A stretch of DNA of 9,199 nt. Origin: a bacterium (GTDB lineage Bacteria > Thermosulfidibacterota > Thermosulfidibacteria > Thermosulfidibacterales > JALWSI01). Made by a program: the position numbers and the translations under genes. Within the stretch, counting starts at the first letter, position 1, and each line of letters starts with the position of its first letter. The notes beneath the pieces were generated by a model. The model worked only from the letters and a program-made list of their open reading frames with translations. It was not told the DNA's origin and searched no databases. Positions 2,061 through 7,204 of this stretch are shown here, piece after piece. The stretch covers positions 1-9,199 of the forward strand of contig JALWSI010000019.1 of assembly GCA_027080315.1 (NCBI GenBank), written 5' to 3'.

Positions 2061-3467
2061 TTACTTGCCGCCTCCTGGCACTCCGTACATGATGGTTCCG
2101 GAGGTCTTCTTCCATACATCCATGGGTTTGGGGAGCTTTGCAGGGGTTATGTTTTTGCCAGTTGCCCCGGGTACGTAAACGGGCTCTGCTTTCCCCTCTT
2201 TGAGGAGCCTGTGGTACTCGGTCTCCAGCTTCATGTAGGCCTTTTTGGCATCGTAGAACCCGTGCCACCAGGAGTAGTCTGGTCCCATCATCATAGCACC
2301 CATACGAGCACGTCTTCCCTGATGGTGCCACAACTCATAGAACTCCCACTCAAACTCTTCGTCAAAGAAGGGCCACTTGGTTAATAGCCCTTTGGCGTAG
2401 AGCTCGGTTAGCATCTTCTTGGCGGGCTTGAAGTAGTCCTCTCCGTAGTGGGTCATAACCTTGTCAAACCTGTCCAGGTAGTTCTTTGACCACTGGGGAG
2501 AGTGGCACTGGTTACATACGGTGAGCATGTTCTTTCTACCCTGCTCGGGGTTGTAGTCTTTGTTGAGAAGCACCATGGGGGCCTGGCTTTCCCATTTGAG
2601 CCTTGTTGCCACATCGTGGGTGGTGGGAAGTCCTCCAACACCAGACATGTGGCATGAGGCACAGGTGGGGGCTGTGAAGTCCTGTCCTGGCTGCCAGGCT
2701 CCAGGAGCAGCATTCCAGTTCCATTTGCTTCCCTCCGCCAAGTACCTGAGGCCGTGTTTGGACTCAAAGTAGATCTCCTTCTGGGGATGATCGGGACCTA
2801 AGTGGCACTGGCCACAGGTTTCGGGCTTTCTGGCCTCGCCCACAGAGAAGGCGTGGCTTGTGTGGCAGATGACGCAGGAGCCTTTGGAACCGTCGGGGTT
2901 GATCCTGCCGCATCCCTCGTTGGGCCATGTCATGGGATCTATGGTCTTCTTTCCGTTCTTGGTCTCAAACTTTATTGTGCTTCCATGGCACATGAAGCAG
3001 CCTGCTGCCCTCTCTTCTGCAGAAGCCATGCCTTTGAGCCAGGGATCTTTGATCTTGTCACGGATGATCTCAATGGTTCTGGCGTGCTTGCTTCTCTCAA
3101 ACTCTTTGAACTCTTGGGGATGACAGCGGGAGCAGTCTTTGGGTGTTACAATGGGGGTTATCTTGAGCTTGGGATTGCCCATGGTGCCGGGACAGTCCAT
3201 TGCGTCTGCATCGGTGGGATCTGCCCTGTGGCAATCAAGACATGCTATGTTTGCTCTGGCATGGGCACTCTGAGCCCAGTCGTGTACCCTGCCAGGCTGG
3301 TTCTTTGAGTGGCACTCTATGCATTTGGCCTCGGTGGGGGTTAGTCCCCTAACCACCTTTAACTCTTTTGGAGCATAAGGCACAGGCACCTTGGCTGCCC
3401 AGGAGGGCATAGCGCCTAAGGCAAAAAACACTGCAATCGCTAATGTTATGCACCAACCTCTCTTCAT
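2061..3467 (-). CDS. Periplasmic octaheme c-type cytochrome of the hydroxylamine oxidoreductase (HAO) family
   Basis: The 468-residue product starts with a Sec signal peptide (positively charged MKR, hydrophobic to about 20, likely cleavage after PSWA at 24). Eight CxxCH sites follow, starting at residues 49, 76, 112, 157, 198, 218, 269 and 318. HAO-family signatures are GRINPDGSKGSCVICH (187-202), RKPETCGQCHLGPDHPQ (213-229), YFESKHG (233-239), APTCASCHMSG (266-276) and, after the last haem, LWHHQGRRARMG with MMMGPDYSWWHGFYD (379-406). Family members oxidise hydroxylamine or hydrazine, or reduce nitrite, NO or hydroxylamine. Enzymes with the Tyr cross-link to the active-site haem favour oxidation; those without it favour reduction. 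Tyr398 lies in about the right region, but I cannot assign it without alignment. No C-terminal membrane anchor is visible. Cys186 is an extra, unpaired cysteine just before the GRINPDGS motif. The gene follows the NrfH-like gene by 28 bp and has a strong AAGGAGG site 7 bases before ATG. With that quinol-linked partner, a reductive role is favoured. It is not NrfA, which has five haems. Confidence 0.93.
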   Translation of the reverse strand: MKRGWCITLAIAVFFALGAMPSWAAKVPVPYAPKELKVVRGLTPTEAKCIECHSKNQPGRVHDWAQSAHARANIACLDCHRADPTDADAMDCPGTMGNPKLKITPIVTPKDCSRCHPQEFKEFERSKHARTIEIIRDKIKDPWLKGMASAEERAAGCFMCHGSTIKFETKNGKKTIDPMTWPNEGCGRINPDGSKGSCVICHTSHAFSVGEARKPETCGQCHLGPDHPQKEIYFESKHGLRYLAEGSKWNWNAAPGAWQPGQDFTAPTCASCHMSGVGGLPTTHDVATRLKWESQAPMVLLNKDYNPEQGRKNMLTVCNQCHSPQWSKNYLDRFDKVMTHYGEDYFKPAKKMLTELYAKGLLTKWPFFDEEFEWEFYELWHHQGRRARMGAMMMGPDYSWWHGFYDAKKAYMKLETEYHRLLKEGKAEPVYVPGATGKNITPAKLPKPMDVWKKTSGTIMYGVPGGGK

Positions 3468-3495
3468 ACGACTTCCTCCTTCAAAAAATAGAATC

Positions 3496-4050
3496 TTACA
3501 ATGTTCCGTATGCTGGTTTGGGGCCGTGGAATCTGTGGTAGTGACACTTTATGCACTTCAGCCCCAACTGGTCCTTGCTCCTACGATACGTCATGTGGGC
3601 TATGATTCCCCCTTTGCTGATGTTGGGAGGAATCAAAACCTTGTGGCAGTGCCGGCAACTCTCGTCACTGATGCTCTTTCTCGCAGAAGCTCTCCACCTG
3701 CTACGTACCTCTTCTGTAGGATTAGGATTCTCTACGATGTGAAACATAAGGTCTTTGGTTCCGTCTGTCATCTTTGCCAATATCTCATGCACCAAACCCG
3801 GTTTGATATGGCAGTCCTTGCATTCCGCCACCACCCCCTTAGAGTTGGCGTAGTGAGCCGAAACCTTCCAGTCGGCTCCTGCAGGACGCATCTCGTGACA
3901 GGAGAGGCAGAACGAAGCCTTTGAGGTGCTATGAACAATCAAAATGCCGAAGAAGCATAGAGCGGCACCCACAAATAGCCCCACAATCAAGGAGACAAAG
4001 GCTTTTCCTTCCTTCTTCCCAAGCACAACGCCCATCCTGGTATCCCTCAA
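3496..4050 (-). CDS. NapC/NrfH-family tetraheme membrane cytochrome c (quinol dehydrogenase partner)
   Basis: From the preferred TTG start the protein has 184 residues. A short basic N-terminus precedes one membrane helix at about 18-40, which anchors the haem domain in the periplasm. Four CxxCH sites begin at residues 48, 77, 132 and 166. The first is CLSCHEM, the CxxCHxM form typical of NapC/NrfH, in which the methionine or its neighbours serve the quinol-proximal haem. Such proteins take electrons from menaquinol and hand them to a periplasmic reductase. Here the next gene, 28 bp downstream, is the octaheme HAO-like cytochrome, so the pair is probably an HaoC/HaoA-like or NrfH/NrfA-like module with a different catalytic subunit. 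The start is chosen by the AAGGAGG site, which overlaps the first possible GTG (4059) but lies eight bases before TTG 4050; ATG 4056 and ATG 4035 are also in frame. Family is secure; the exact start is not. Confidence 0.92.
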   Translation of the reverse strand: MRDTRMGVVLGKKEGKAFVSLIVGLFVGAALCFFGILIVHSTSKASFCLSCHEMRPAGADWKVSAHYANSKGVVAECKDCHIKPGLVHEILAKMTDGTKDLMFHIVENPNPTEEVRSRWRASARKSISDESCRHCHKVLIPPNISKGGIIAHMTYRRSKDQLGLKCIKCHYHRFHGPKPAYGTL

Positions 4051-4058
4051 ACACATCA

Positions 4059-4065
4059 CCTCCTT
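4059..4065 (-). promoter_or_regulatory. Shine-Dalgarno that decides the NrfH-like start
   Basis: On the minus strand AAGGAGG occupies 4065-4059. The in-frame GTG at 4059 shares its first base, and ATG at 4056 is only two bases away, both too close. TTG at 4050 is eight bases away, the best spacing. ATG at 4035 would be 23 bases away. Confidence 0.6.
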
Positions 4066-4289
4066 TCTTATCTTAGGGTTTCGCTTCTCAGTTTATTGAG
4101 AATAGCTCTCATCCCCACTCTTACTAAAATCAGTTCTCGTTATTAATTTCAAGGCCGTTTTATGAATAATTTTGGGTTAATTTTGTTACAATTGATATTT
4201 CGGAAGAGACGGTTGAGGTGTATTCACCATTAAAGTCTAAGGCATTTGGGCCACTTGTGTGGTTGGATAGAGTGGAGTAAGGGAGAGAT
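4066..4289. promoter_or_regulatory. Divergent control region between cytochrome and sensor operons
   Basis: About 220 bp separate the NrfH-like gene (minus) from the kinase gene (plus). The part from about 4120 to 4200 is markedly more AT-rich than the flanking genes, as expected of promoters, and must hold start signals for both operons. No promoter stands out: on the minus strand TTGAAA, 17 bases, TTTTAG is the best candidate, but its -10 is poor. I see no convincing TGGCAC-N5-TTGC sigma54 site and no full FNR palindrome (TTGAT-N4-ATCAA). A TTGAT half-site occurs at about 4192-4196. I see no gene in the stretch. Confidence 0.5.
4085..4111. repeat. Overlapping small inverted repeats, possible operator
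   Basis: TTCTCA (4085-4090), TGAGAA (4097-4102) and TCTCA (4107-4111) form two inverted repeats that share their middle arm: TTCTCA-6-TGAGAA and TGAGA-5-TCTCA. The two same-direction arms are 21 bases apart, about two helical turns, which would suit an OmpR/PhoB-type dimer on direct repeats. A related TTCTCG lies at 4134-4139. The site is 35-60 bases before the NrfH-like start. A regulatory role is inferred only. Confidence 0.3.
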
Positions 4290-5822
4290 ATGTTTTCGGT
4301 GCTGGGTAAAAGAATAATGCTCTTTCTCTTTGTCACACTGGGGATTGGTGGGCTTCTGTTATCCTGGTGGATAGGTGTTAAAGAGAAGGAGCTGATACTG
4401 GATCAACTCAGGCTTGAGGCCGAGTCTGTGTACCAGTACGCTATTGCTGCAAGGCACTGGTTGGCTTCAAATAAAGGAAGGTTGCTTAAGAACGGTGATA
4501 AGCCATCCATTTTGAGCCCCTGTGAGTTTATTCACAAGCTGGATGACTATTCAAGTAAAATATACCCTTACCGGGTGAAGATAGCGCTCCTCAATCCTTC
4601 AAATGAGGCTCTGAAGGCAGATGAGTTTGAGAGGGCAGCCATCTCTACCATGGATGAGAGAACCCCAATATGGAGAATAGAAAAGGGCTCTGATGGCCCT
4701 GTTTTCCGATTTGTAGCTCCTCTTCAATTCTCACAGGAATGTCTCAATTGCCATAGTGATTTTCCTAAAGATGTTCAGGGTTGCATAAGTGTAGCCATTC
4801 CAGCCACCGAAGCCTTGACAAAGCTGAGCCGAGAACGGTTGGCGCTCTTTTTTGTAGTATTTCTCTTGATAATGATAGAGCTTGCTATCTTGCTGGTGGG
4901 CTTAAAAGTTATGGTTCTTAATCCTCTTGGAGTAATGGTTGATGCATCCCAAAGGGCCTGTGAAGGGGATCTCAGCGTTAGGATTGATAGGGAGGGGGAG
5001 GATGAGTGGAGCAGGTTGGCAAATAACTTTAATGCCATGGTTGAAAAGATTCTGCACCATCGCTCTGAGATGGAGCAAGAGGTGAAGAAGGCTATTGAGA
5101 AGGTTGAGAGGGCCTATCGGGAGCTTAAAGAGACTGAGAGCTTCAAGGCTGAGTTTTTCTCTAACATAACTCACGATCTCAAGACCCCTATCACCGCTAT
5201 TAAAGGGGCGGTTGATCTGTTGGCGAGACAGAGAGGAGTGGAGCCCACTTTGGATGTGATTAAGAAGAACATAGATAAGCTATCTAAAATGATCGGAGAT
5301 CTTCTGGACTGTGCAAGGCTTGAGAGCGGGAAGCTTGAGATGAACCTTGAGGAGCAGGATCTCGTTGAGGTGGTGGAAGAGACTGTATTTCTCAACACCT
5401 TATTGGCCCAGCAGAAAAATGTAACATTGAATCTTGAAAGCGAGAGGGAGACTGTGGTACTGCCTTTTGACAGTGATAGGATTTCTCAGGTGGTGGCGAA
5501 TCTCCTGAGCAATGCCATCAAGTTCTCTCCTGAAGGGGGAGTGGTTAATGTAAAGGTGGGAGTGACCGAGGGGGGATGGGCTGTGGTATCGGTGGAGGAC
5601 TCAGGGCCCGGTATTCCGAAGGAGAAGAGGGATAAGGTGTTTGAGAAATTTTATAGAATTGACATGCAAGAGAACTCAAAAGGATCAACGGGGTTGGGTC
5701 TTGCTATATGCAAAGGGGTTGTTGAGGCCCATGGTGGCAGAATTGAGATTGTGGACCCTGTGGATCACAAGGGGACAGTGGTCAGGTTCTACCTGCCGGG
5801 GGTGAGAGAAGAGCGAGTTTGA
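4290..5822 (+). CDS. Sensor histidine kinase with periplasmic haem-c (DUF3365/Tll0287-like) domain
   Basis: This 510-residue kinase has a membrane helix at about 8-29, a periplasmic domain at 30-183, a second helix at about 184-209, and a HAMP linker near 206-258. A charged coiled-coil stretch (257-285) leads to the kinase core. The phosphorylated residue is His295 in SNITHDLKTP. ATP-binding boxes follow: N box at 398-413 (LLSNAIKFSP with Asn408), G1 DSGPGIP at 437-443, F box FEKFYRID at 451-458 and G2 GSTGLGLAI at 465-473. The periplasmic domain contains CLNCH (151-155) in a setting (FVAPLQFSQ before it, ISVAIPATEAL after it) typical of the DUF3365/Tll0287-like family, so it should carry one covalently bound haem c. 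It probably senses redox state or a gaseous ligand such as NO. The gene is divergent from the two cytochromes and 22 bp upstream of its response regulator. The ATG has AAGGGAG four bases upstream. The true ligand cannot be read from sequence. Confidence 0.93.
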   Translation: MFSVLGKRIMLFLFVTLGIGGLLLSWWIGVKEKELILDQLRLEAESVYQYAIAARHWLASNKGRLLKNGDKPSILSPCEFIHKLDDYSSKIYPYRVKIALLNPSNEALKADEFERAAISTMDERTPIWRIEKGSDGPVFRFVAPLQFSQECLNCHSDFPKDVQGCISVAIPATEALTKLSRERLALFFVVFLLIMIELAILLVGLKVMVLNPLGVMVDASQRACEGDLSVRIDREGEDEWSRLANNFNAMVEKILHHRSEMEQEVKKAIEKVERAYRELKETESFKAEFFSNITHDLKTPITAIKGAVDLLARQRGVEPTLDVIKKNIDKLSKMIGDLLDCARLESGKLEMNLEEQDLVEVVEETVFLNTLLAQQKNVTLNLESERETVVLPFDSDRISQVVANLLSNAIKFSPEGGVVNVKVGVTEGGWAVVSVEDSGPGIPKEKRDKVFEKFYRIDMQENSKGSTGLGLAICKGVVEAHGGRIEIVDPVDHKGTVVRFYLPGVREERV

Positions 5823-5844: not shown

Positions 5845-6537
5845 ATGATAGGTTCAAAGAAGATTCTGGTGATTGAGGACGATCCTGATATCAGGATGGT
5901 TTTAAAAGGCCAGCTTGATATGGACGGTTATGAGGTTTACGAGGCTGAGACGGGAAGGGAAGGTCTTGTCCTTACAAAAAGCGTCTTGCCTGACTTGGTG
6001 ATCCTTGATCTCAACCTCCCTGATATGGATGGAATGAAGGTCTGTAAAGAGGTGAAAGAGATAGGGGATATCCCTGTGATAATGCTCACCGTTAGAGACA
6101 CAATGTCTGACAAGCTCAGAGGGTTTGAGGTTGGAGCAGACGACTATCTTACCAAACCTTTTGAATACCTTGAACTGGCCGCCCGTATAAAGGTCTGTCT
6201 TAAGAGAAAAGGGCAGAGGATGTTCAAGGATGAGCCTCTGGAGAGCGGTGACTTCAAACTCTTCCAGAAGCGCAGAGAGGTGGTTATAGGAGACAAGAAG
6301 ATTCGCCTCACAAAGAGAGAGACCCAACTTCTTGAGCTTCTAATGGGACATGCAGGGGATGTGGTGCCCAGGGAGTTCTTGAAGTCACAGATATGGCAAG
6401 GTGAGCTTGGCTCTGAGAGCAGGTCATTGGATGTGCATGTGAGGCGTCTTAGATGCAAGATAGAGCCTGATCCTGAAAATCCCCGTTATGTGATAACCCA
6501 TCCAGGGGTTGGATACAGGTTTGAGCCAGGGGAGTAG
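5845..6537 (+). CDS. OmpR/PhoB-family response regulator
   Basis: A 230-residue DNA-binding response regulator. The receiver domain (about 5-120) has the acidic pocket Glu11-Asp12-Asp13, the phosphoacceptor Asp55 in VILDLNLPD, Thr82 and Lys104 in LTKPF, so it should be fully active. The C-terminal winged helix (about 131-228) shows the family features LTKRETQLLELL, SLDVHVRRLRCKI and the closing VITHPGVGYRF. It starts 22 bp after the haem-c kinase, with AAGGAGG five bases before ATG, and is surely the partner of that kinase. Its 3' end overlaps the CRP/FNR-family gene by up to 29 bases in another frame. Likely targets are its own operon and the divergent cytochrome operon, for which the repeats at 4085-4111 are a candidate site. 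The regulon is inferred from position, not shown. Confidence 0.96.
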   Translation: MIGSKKILVIEDDPDIRMVLKGQLDMDGYEVYEAETGREGLVLTKSVLPDLVILDLNLPDMDGMKVCKEVKEIGDIPVIMLTVRDTMSDKLRGFEVGADDYLTKPFEYLELAARIKVCLKRKGQRMFKDEPLESGDFKLFQKRREVVIGDKKIRLTKRETQLLELLMGHAGDVVPREFLKSQIWQGELGSESRSLDVHVRRLRCKIEPDPENPRYVITHPGVGYRFEPGE

Positions 6538-7204
6538 GTCTGGAGATCTACTACTAAAAGAGGTTCCCCTTTTTAAAGGGCTCTCCCCTGATTTCCTAAG
6601 AACCTTAGAGGGGATTGCCAGAAGGCGCTTTGTGCCAAAGGGAGATATGCTTTTTATGCAGGGGGATCGGGCTGAGGGGTTCTATGTGTTGCTTTCTGGC
6701 AAGGTTAAGGTGATGAAGCTCTCTTCGCAGGGTAAAAGCCAGATTTTAGGGGTTTTTGGCCCTGGTGATTCGGTGGGGGAGGTGGCTGTATTCGAGGACG
6801 GTACCTATCCTGCTTATGCTCAGGCTATAGAGGACTCAACTCTGGCCTTCTTGCCACGAGACAGGTTTATTCAGGTGGTTAGAGAGAATCCCGATCTTGC
6901 ATTGGGAATGATGGCCATTCTCTCCCGTAGGCTACGCAGGTTGACCTCTTTGGCAGAGTCTCTCGCATTGAAAGAGGTGCCTGCAAGGTTGGCTCAGTAC
7001 CTATTGACTCTCGCCTCTGAGAGAGGAGACGAGGTGGTCTTAGGGTTGAAGAAGGGAGAGATTGCCGAGGTGCTTGGAACCACTCCAGAGACCCTTTCCC
7101 GCTCTTTTGCTAAATTGTCTTCCTTGGGAATGATAGAGGTTAATGGTCCTAAGGTGAGAATCCTGGATGAAAGGGCTTTGAGGCGTATCTCAGAGGAAAT
7201 TTGA
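6509..7204 (+). CDS. CRP/FNR-family transcriptional regulator without cysteines
   Basis: The 231-residue product (from TTG 6509) has a cyclic-nucleotide-binding-type beta barrel at about 20-130 (VLLSGKVKVM, GPGDSVGEVAVF), a long dimer helix at 131-150 and a winged helix at 155-228. The recognition helix reads TTPETLSRSFAKL (191-203). Glu-x-x-Ser-Arg here equals the contact residues of FNR, so a TTGAT/TTGAC-type half-site is predicted. There is no cysteine at all, so it cannot carry the FNR Fe-S cluster. Among relatives, the haem-dependent NO sensors DNR and HcpR are better models than FNR, and the barrel lacks an obvious full set of cAMP contacts. The start is uncertain: TTG 6509 or TTG 6521 (AGGGG twelve bases upstream). 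Both overlap the response-regulator gene, which suggests coupled translation. Placement in a haem-sensor operon supports a role in nitrogen-oxide or redox control, as inference. Confidence 0.9.
   Translation: MDTGLSQGSRSGDLLLKEVPLFKGLSPDFLRTLEGIARRRFVPKGDMLFMQGDRAEGFYVLLSGKVKVMKLSSQGKSQILGVFGPGDSVGEVAVFEDGTYPAYAQAIEDSTLAFLPRDRFIQVVRENPDLALGMMAILSRRLRRLTSLAESLALKEVPARLAQYLLTLASERGDEVVLGLKKGEIAEVLGTTPETLSRSFAKLSSLGMIEVNGPKVRILDERALRRISEEI

Follow-up and report, generated by a model that had tools for sequence, protein, structure and literature searches.

In a complete contig of 9199 bp (G000:C19; hereafter the window), belonging to a metagenome-assembled genome (MAG) of 1.84 Mb and 94% completeness, a histidine kinase with a putative haem c domain in the periplasm is encoded divergently from a NapC/NrfH-like tetrahaem cytochrome and an octahaem cytochrome resembling hydroxylamine oxidoreductase (HAO). 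We interpret this locus, with a probability of roughly 0.6, as a two-component system devoted to N-oxide reduction in the periplasm, which would sense through haem c and drive a quinol-linked octahaem reductase. The pairing of kinase and cytochromes as well as a shared operator recur across several phyla, and the sensor therefore very probably switches the enzyme, which resembles a multi-haem nitrite reductase, on in response to reactive nitrogen compounds. The three reading frames (2061–3467, 3496–4059 and 4290–5822) are all intact and contain eight, four and one CxxCH motifs, respectively, in line with the counts that the original prediction, made from the letters of the window, had given for the HAO-like protein, the NapC/NrfH-like protein and the periplasmic domain of the kinase; the Pfam matches of the cytochromes and the kinase were far above chance. 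That prediction, spanning 2061–5822, named these genes correctly but left out two genes on the strand of the kinase, encoding an OmpR/PhoB-type response regulator (5845–6537, + strand; PF00072 and PF00486), the presumed kinase partner that adjoins it in nearly all relatives, and a Crp/Fnr-family regulator (6509–7204, + strand).

We surveyed the linkage of these genes at 80 haoA loci taken from public genomes, all data used here being sequence-based and mostly derived from fragmented MAGs. In seven loci (L122, L123, L128, L131, L135, L071 and L121) the kinase–regulator pair lies immediately divergent from nrfH–haoA, these being found in the Desulfofervidaceae, at four Thermodesulfobacteria-type loci, at one from the Desulfobacteraceae and at one from the Acidobacteria; the PF11845 domain of these kinases was confirmed genome by genome. 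A second survey covered 198 evenly drawn Thermodesulfobacteriota genomes, of which 17 encode a near full-length kinase homologue, as counted with a profile built mainly from linked loci and a cut-off picked after the hits had been viewed. Leaving out two profile-building genomes, 14 of 15 homologues adjoin respiratory genes, the only exception being G308. These neighbours are haoCA or octahaem genes (G268, G190, G223 and G220, the first three again with the kinase divergent from nrfH–haoA), Rieske–cytochrome b genes with or without an octahaem gene on the contig (G200, G168, G164, G127, G229 and G281), nap with octahaem and NrfD genes (G148 and G294), nrfHA together with nap (G269), or nrfAH (G291), where the identities of NapA, NrfA, NapH, Rieske protein, cytochrome b and NrfD were checked in representatives. 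Both the linkage of the kinase–regulator pair to haoCA in Thermodesulfobacteriota and Acidobacteria, which is mostly divergent, and the position of its relatives beside nrfHA, nap or Rieske–cytochrome b–octahaem genes are new observations. Conservation of the divergent arrangement, for which the original prediction had proposed a genome survey, was found in other phyla. The window kinase falls into a fully supported clade of 12 members tied to haoCA, nap or nrf; matches of the kinase domains in distant genomes were dismissed as generic HisKA/HATPase similarity.

The arrangement varies among relatives. Within the window's order, kinase, regulator, nrfH and haoA all run in one direction in G006, and in G007 (L042:9390–10594) the divergent pair is truncated into one another, leaving a carboxy-terminal remnant of haoA and a kinase with a broken amino terminus; because haoA is a remnant, this locus was not counted as a divergent pair. 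A sister clade of sCache_heme kinases (L156, L157, L159, L160, L161 and L162) is divergent from a Rieske–cytochrome b module with the same operator, followed in L156, L157, L159 and L162 by an octahaem cytochrome of about 538 residues. In G190 (L149:302–3373) a type II DMSO-reductase-family molybdoenzyme and its iron–sulfur partner are encoded directly downstream of haoA, next to the haem kinase, and in L131 and L135 the operator and nrfH are separated by a short cupin-like reading frame of about 115 residues (judged by eye).

Side-by-side comparison of the divergent intergenic regions revealed repeated hexamers of the form TGTWAA, GGTTAA or TGTTAC at 9–11 bp spacing. Regulators of the PhoB/OmpR type would be expected to bind direct repeats of this kind. 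On an operator score based on a fixed consensus, set after most loci had been viewed and partly designed on the same loci, 14 linked regions were well above shuffles (p 0.0025–0.005), and a score of at least 26 was reached by six of eight kinase-linked but none of 63 unlinked haoCA upstream regions (80 loci; Fisher 2e-7). One of the two linked misses, L128, carries a perfect site, which the automatic start call had placed inside the gene. Two results safeguard against circularity: regions outside the consensus derivation also scored high (L121, G003 nrfH, G006 nrfH, G229, G281 and the nap/octahaem cluster of G148), and a strict three-unit pattern run over 20 whole genomes gave eight matches, one per genome, all at the kinase/cytochrome locus. 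In G003, a four-unit site with an 11–11 pattern occurs only before nrfH, the kinase genes being on another contig. L118, at 5 kb distance, and L059, with another arrangement and no operator, were not counted as operator support. Kinase-linked promoters thus share a predicted direct-repeat operator of TGTWAA units, described here for the first time, and its specificity for kinase-linked cytochrome promoters supports the earlier proposal that the kinase controls cytochrome expression.

In the window, the divergent promoter region between the two operons (4060–4289) contains no long reading frame and corresponds to the position that carries the operator in relatives. Its core, GGTTAA-N3-TGTTAC at 4175–4189 (+ strand), consists of two clear direct-repeat units with a degenerate third unit, and is the only two-unit match in the 9.2 kb (shuffle p 0.0013–0.005). 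Sigma70 promoter and terminator scans of 4000–4350 gave nothing above chance, and no FNR-like boxes were found in the divergent region.

We next consider the sensor. The kinase (4290–5822, + strand; 510 residues) comprises a first transmembrane helix, the periplasmic haem-c Cache domain, a second transmembrane helix, HAMP, HisKA and HATPase_c. Its periplasmic part matches PF11845, the Tll0287-like family (E 1.3e-13; 52.1 bits against a curated cut-off of 24.1). Since a direct sequence search of the domain against the PDB gave no match and a profile search returned mainly HAMP domains, Tll0287 reaching no better than E 0.29, fold comparison was needed. An AlphaFold2 model from the window and nine relatives (predicted local distance difference test, pLDDT, 84) matched Tll0287 (5b82) best among haem domains (E 2.1e-4), with Z 11.5 over 131 residues and an rmsd of 4.8, which relates its Cache fold to that of Tll0287; 3b42 and 3b47 also matched, with the GSU0935 and GSU0582 domains of haem-c chemoreceptors lower in the ranking. 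The single haem motif CLNCH (residues 151–155; codons 4740–4754, + strand) is invariant in relatives and lies in an insertion of the Cache fold, with a short helix (149–153) between strands. By sequence, the sensor is the known sCache_heme (Tll0287/DUF3365) domain, a putative haem c carrier; the DUF3365 assignment made earlier agrees with PF11845, the predicted fold and the literature (PMC12889525). A 2026 preprint renamed the Tll0287/DUF3365 domain sCache_heme, reported CxxCH in 99% of members, and described a signalling-type member that binds NO tightly and forms no stable O2 complex; the words 'nitrite', 'operon' and 'hydroxylamine' are absent from its text, as are target genes (PMC12889525). 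GSU0582 and GSU0935 likewise bind NO (PMC3460858). The kinase clade has no conserved cysteine ahead of CxxCH or in the first helix; in this it resembles the signalling type and departs from stand-alone members with Cys/His ligation. Of the candidates considered for a conserved axial cysteine, Cys78 is specific to the window, and the extra cysteine after CxxCH (GCIS, Cys165) is found in most but not all clade members.

The octahaem cytochrome HaoA (2061–3467, − strand; 468 residues with a signal peptide; PF13447 Multi-haem_cyto, E 7.9e-35) gave 4qo5 (IhOCC) and then 1fgj (HAO) as best PDB sequence matches. Its model retrieved 4qo5 and 6h5l, the reducing HAO-like Kustc0457/0458 complex, by Foldseek, placing it in the HAO fold; because of its modest confidence (pLDDT 75), this model was used for the fold class only. 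The active-site pair Asp226–His227 is kept in 20/20 aligned sequences, and the position of the P460 cross-link tyrosine is W, H or Q in all 20, with Trp400 in the window protein, which does not fit a hydroxylamine oxidoreductase proper. A missing tyrosine at this position and a NapC/NrfH partner together make up the published signature of reductive HaoA of the reverse hydroxylamine–ubiquinone redox module (reverse-HURM; PMC3701875). As the Asp–His pair is kept and the tyrosine lost, the window enzyme is, judged by sequence, of the reductive type, with a predicted activity. Its partner (3496–4059, − strand; 187 residues), a membrane-anchored tetrahaem quinol dehydrogenase of the HaoC/CycB-like kind, has CxxCHxM as first haem motif, matches Desulfovibrio vulgaris NrfH (2j7a), and belongs to the NapC/NirT family (PF03264 Cytochrom_NNT, E 1.1e-30); the NrfH equivalog TIGR03153 was rejected at 64.1 bits against a cut-off of 134.2. 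Most of the 80 relatives have such a gene next to haoA. Both the NapC/NrfH/CycB partner and Hcp of the reverse-HURM are present, with one hcp copy in the genome, in which nrfA was not detectable; short PF02335 (NrfA) matches around one haem motif in the window's order were discarded. The same genome encodes a second, divergent cytochrome with eight CxxCH motifs (G000:C95; L054:9884–11116), of 411 residues and about 26% identity. Longer octahaem types of about 517–544 residues occur in other genomes of the order, and the haoA relatives in L106–L110 and L113 encode about 730 residues with nine CxxCH motifs and lack a separate nrfH directly ahead.

The Crp/Fnr-family protein, HcpR/DNR-like and cysteine-free with an ETLSR recognition helix (PF00027 and PF13545), also follows the kinase–regulator pair in the order relatives G005 and G007 and in the Desulfobacterota-type G200, G229 and G127. 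All five hcp genes of the window's order (L163, being G000:C168:6526–8139, and L172–L176) have a TTGAY-N4-RTCAA palindrome 71–78 bp ahead of the start, an hcp box exemplified by TTGATTCACATCAA; this palindrome did not occur in 118 kb of other order loci, nor in the window. In G002 hcp has a related Crp gene as its neighbour, and in the window's genome it is followed by a ferredoxin-like (FrdX-like) gene. This pattern fits an N-oxide response, and by analogy the Crp/Fnr protein of the window may be linked to hcp control. Downstream of its gene the window encodes MazG and then an AsmA-like protein; at the other end, a CbiH–CbiC fusion (448–1839; precorrin-3B C17-methyltransferase and precorrin-8X methylmutase) follows the 3' end of a thiC-family gene, and a tRNA-Leu lies at 1862–1947 (− strand).

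The predicted domains, the conserved linkage, the operator with its specificity and the hcp box together suggest how the system may work, and comparative genomics gives good support for kinase control of the cytochromes. The kinase would hold haem c in its periplasmic Cache domain, where NO, most likely, or another haem-reactive N-oxide would bind the iron and change the domain. HAMP would relay this change, so that the kinase phosphorylates the OmpR-type regulator, which would bind the TGTWAA repeats between the operons and activate the nrfH-like gene and haoA, and probably its own operon too. The tetrahaem protein would then pass quinol electrons to the octahaem enzyme for reduction of nitrite, NO or hydroxylamine, while the Crp/Fnr protein probably controls hcp and Hcp would clear NO or hydroxylamine in the cytoplasm.

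Several points weigh against this reading. About 70 of the 80 haoA relatives have no such kinase nearby, and in G003 and G005 of the window's order kinase and haoCA are on different contigs and not adjacent. The operator score was designed in part on loci that it then rated, and in the window itself regulator binding may be altered, as set out below. No NapA, which belongs to the reverse-HURM scheme, scored above the cut-off in the 94% complete MAG. Finally, NO or an N-oxide as the kinase signal is likely by analogy, yet is extrapolated from distant family members, and Cys165 could change the haem ligation. An alternative is a different sensing mode, in which the haem oxidation state rather than NO sets activity and the kinase, as a redox (or quinol/oxygen) sensor, tunes the cytochromes to the periplasmic potential. 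Haem c can act through its redox state, those sCache_heme proteins that stand alone appear redox-like (PMC12889525), the haem-c chemoreceptor DcrA, as cited in PMC3460858, was proposed as an O2 or redox sensor, most clade members share Cys165, and the kinase relatives adjoin several respiratory modules including Rieske–cytochrome b. Most identified partner modules are nevertheless N-oxide linked (nap, nrf, hao), and the first helix lacks a conserved cysteine as in the NO-binding type without axial cysteine; we regard a redox sensor as rather unlikely.

A different substrate for enzyme and kinase, for example sulfur oxyanions, is quite improbable. Many hosts do come from groups that reduce sulfate or disproportionate sulfur, and an earlier paper left room for a sulfur role at a related octahaem/NrfD locus (PMC5276818), but the kinase relatives adjoin NapA and NrfA, the enzyme has the HAO fold with the Asp–His site, and the sulfite reductase MccA was not a close match of HaoA by fold comparison. 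The window itself shows signs of drift: with three units its operator reaches only p 0.10, and the DNA-binding loop of its regulator reads GSESR where most relatives have YPWSR or similar. Given the weak third unit and this loop, regulator binding may be altered here, and site and regulator may have drifted together. In G007, moreover, haoA has decayed, its first half being lost and its last haem motif reading CVQCY. One could take such features to mean that this genome retains the gene neighbourhood as a relic, with the kinase system re-targeted and control of haoCA lost. All reading frames are intact, however, two operator units are kept at the expected place and the linkage persists across large evolutionary distances; we give this explanation little chance.

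The known sCache_heme proteins (P. azotoformans target 2, GSU0582 and GSU0935; PMC12889525, PMC3460858) share domain, CxxCH position, Cache fold and HAMP fusion with the window kinase, whose clade mostly has the additional cysteine after CxxCH; those reports name neither target genes nor an operator, whereas here a kinase/OmpR pair is tied to N-oxide reductases. The nearest functional parallel is NrfS–NrfR of Desulfovibrio, a dedicated two-component system divergent from nrfHA, presumed to respond to nitrite and with sites also at nap (PMC5701242). NrfS–NrfR is sigma54-dependent, unlike the OmpR/PhoB-type regulator of the window with its PF00486 domain, and the window sensor differs in carrying a haem c motif. 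The reverse-HURM (HaoA, CycB and Hcp) of Nautilia profundicola shares the tyrosine-less HaoA, the NapC/NrfH-type partner, Hcp and the lack of NrfA, but its haoA and cycB are separate loci with no regulator described (PMC3701875), and in the window's genome no NapA was found. Hcp regulators of the HcpR/DNR type (PMC1274295) share the cysteine-free Crp/Fnr protein, the TTGAY-N4-RTCAA box before hcp and a ferredoxin-like gene beside hcp; the window's Crp/Fnr gene stands behind the two-component pair instead of beside hcp. The literature searched, mostly without subscription journals, held no paper linking sCache_heme to an octahaem or nrf system, consistent with the earlier remark that such a regulator is not well described.

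The finding bears on the regulation of nitrite and NO reduction in bacteria using octahaem cytochromes, enzymes that, according to a 2025 review, bring unknown variables into this regulation (PMC12285233). sCache_heme domains are common in anaerobes, and the papers found give no physiological outputs; with target genes, a cognate regulator and an operator now supplied, the role of these sensors becomes testable. The odds lie slightly in favour of a widespread and previously undescribed regulon, in which a periplasmic haem-c NO/N-oxide two-component system with its own TGTWAA operator, single-site in several genomes, would activate the ammonifying octahaem, Nrf and Nap modules of anaerobes and would provide the first physiological target for sCache_heme kinases.

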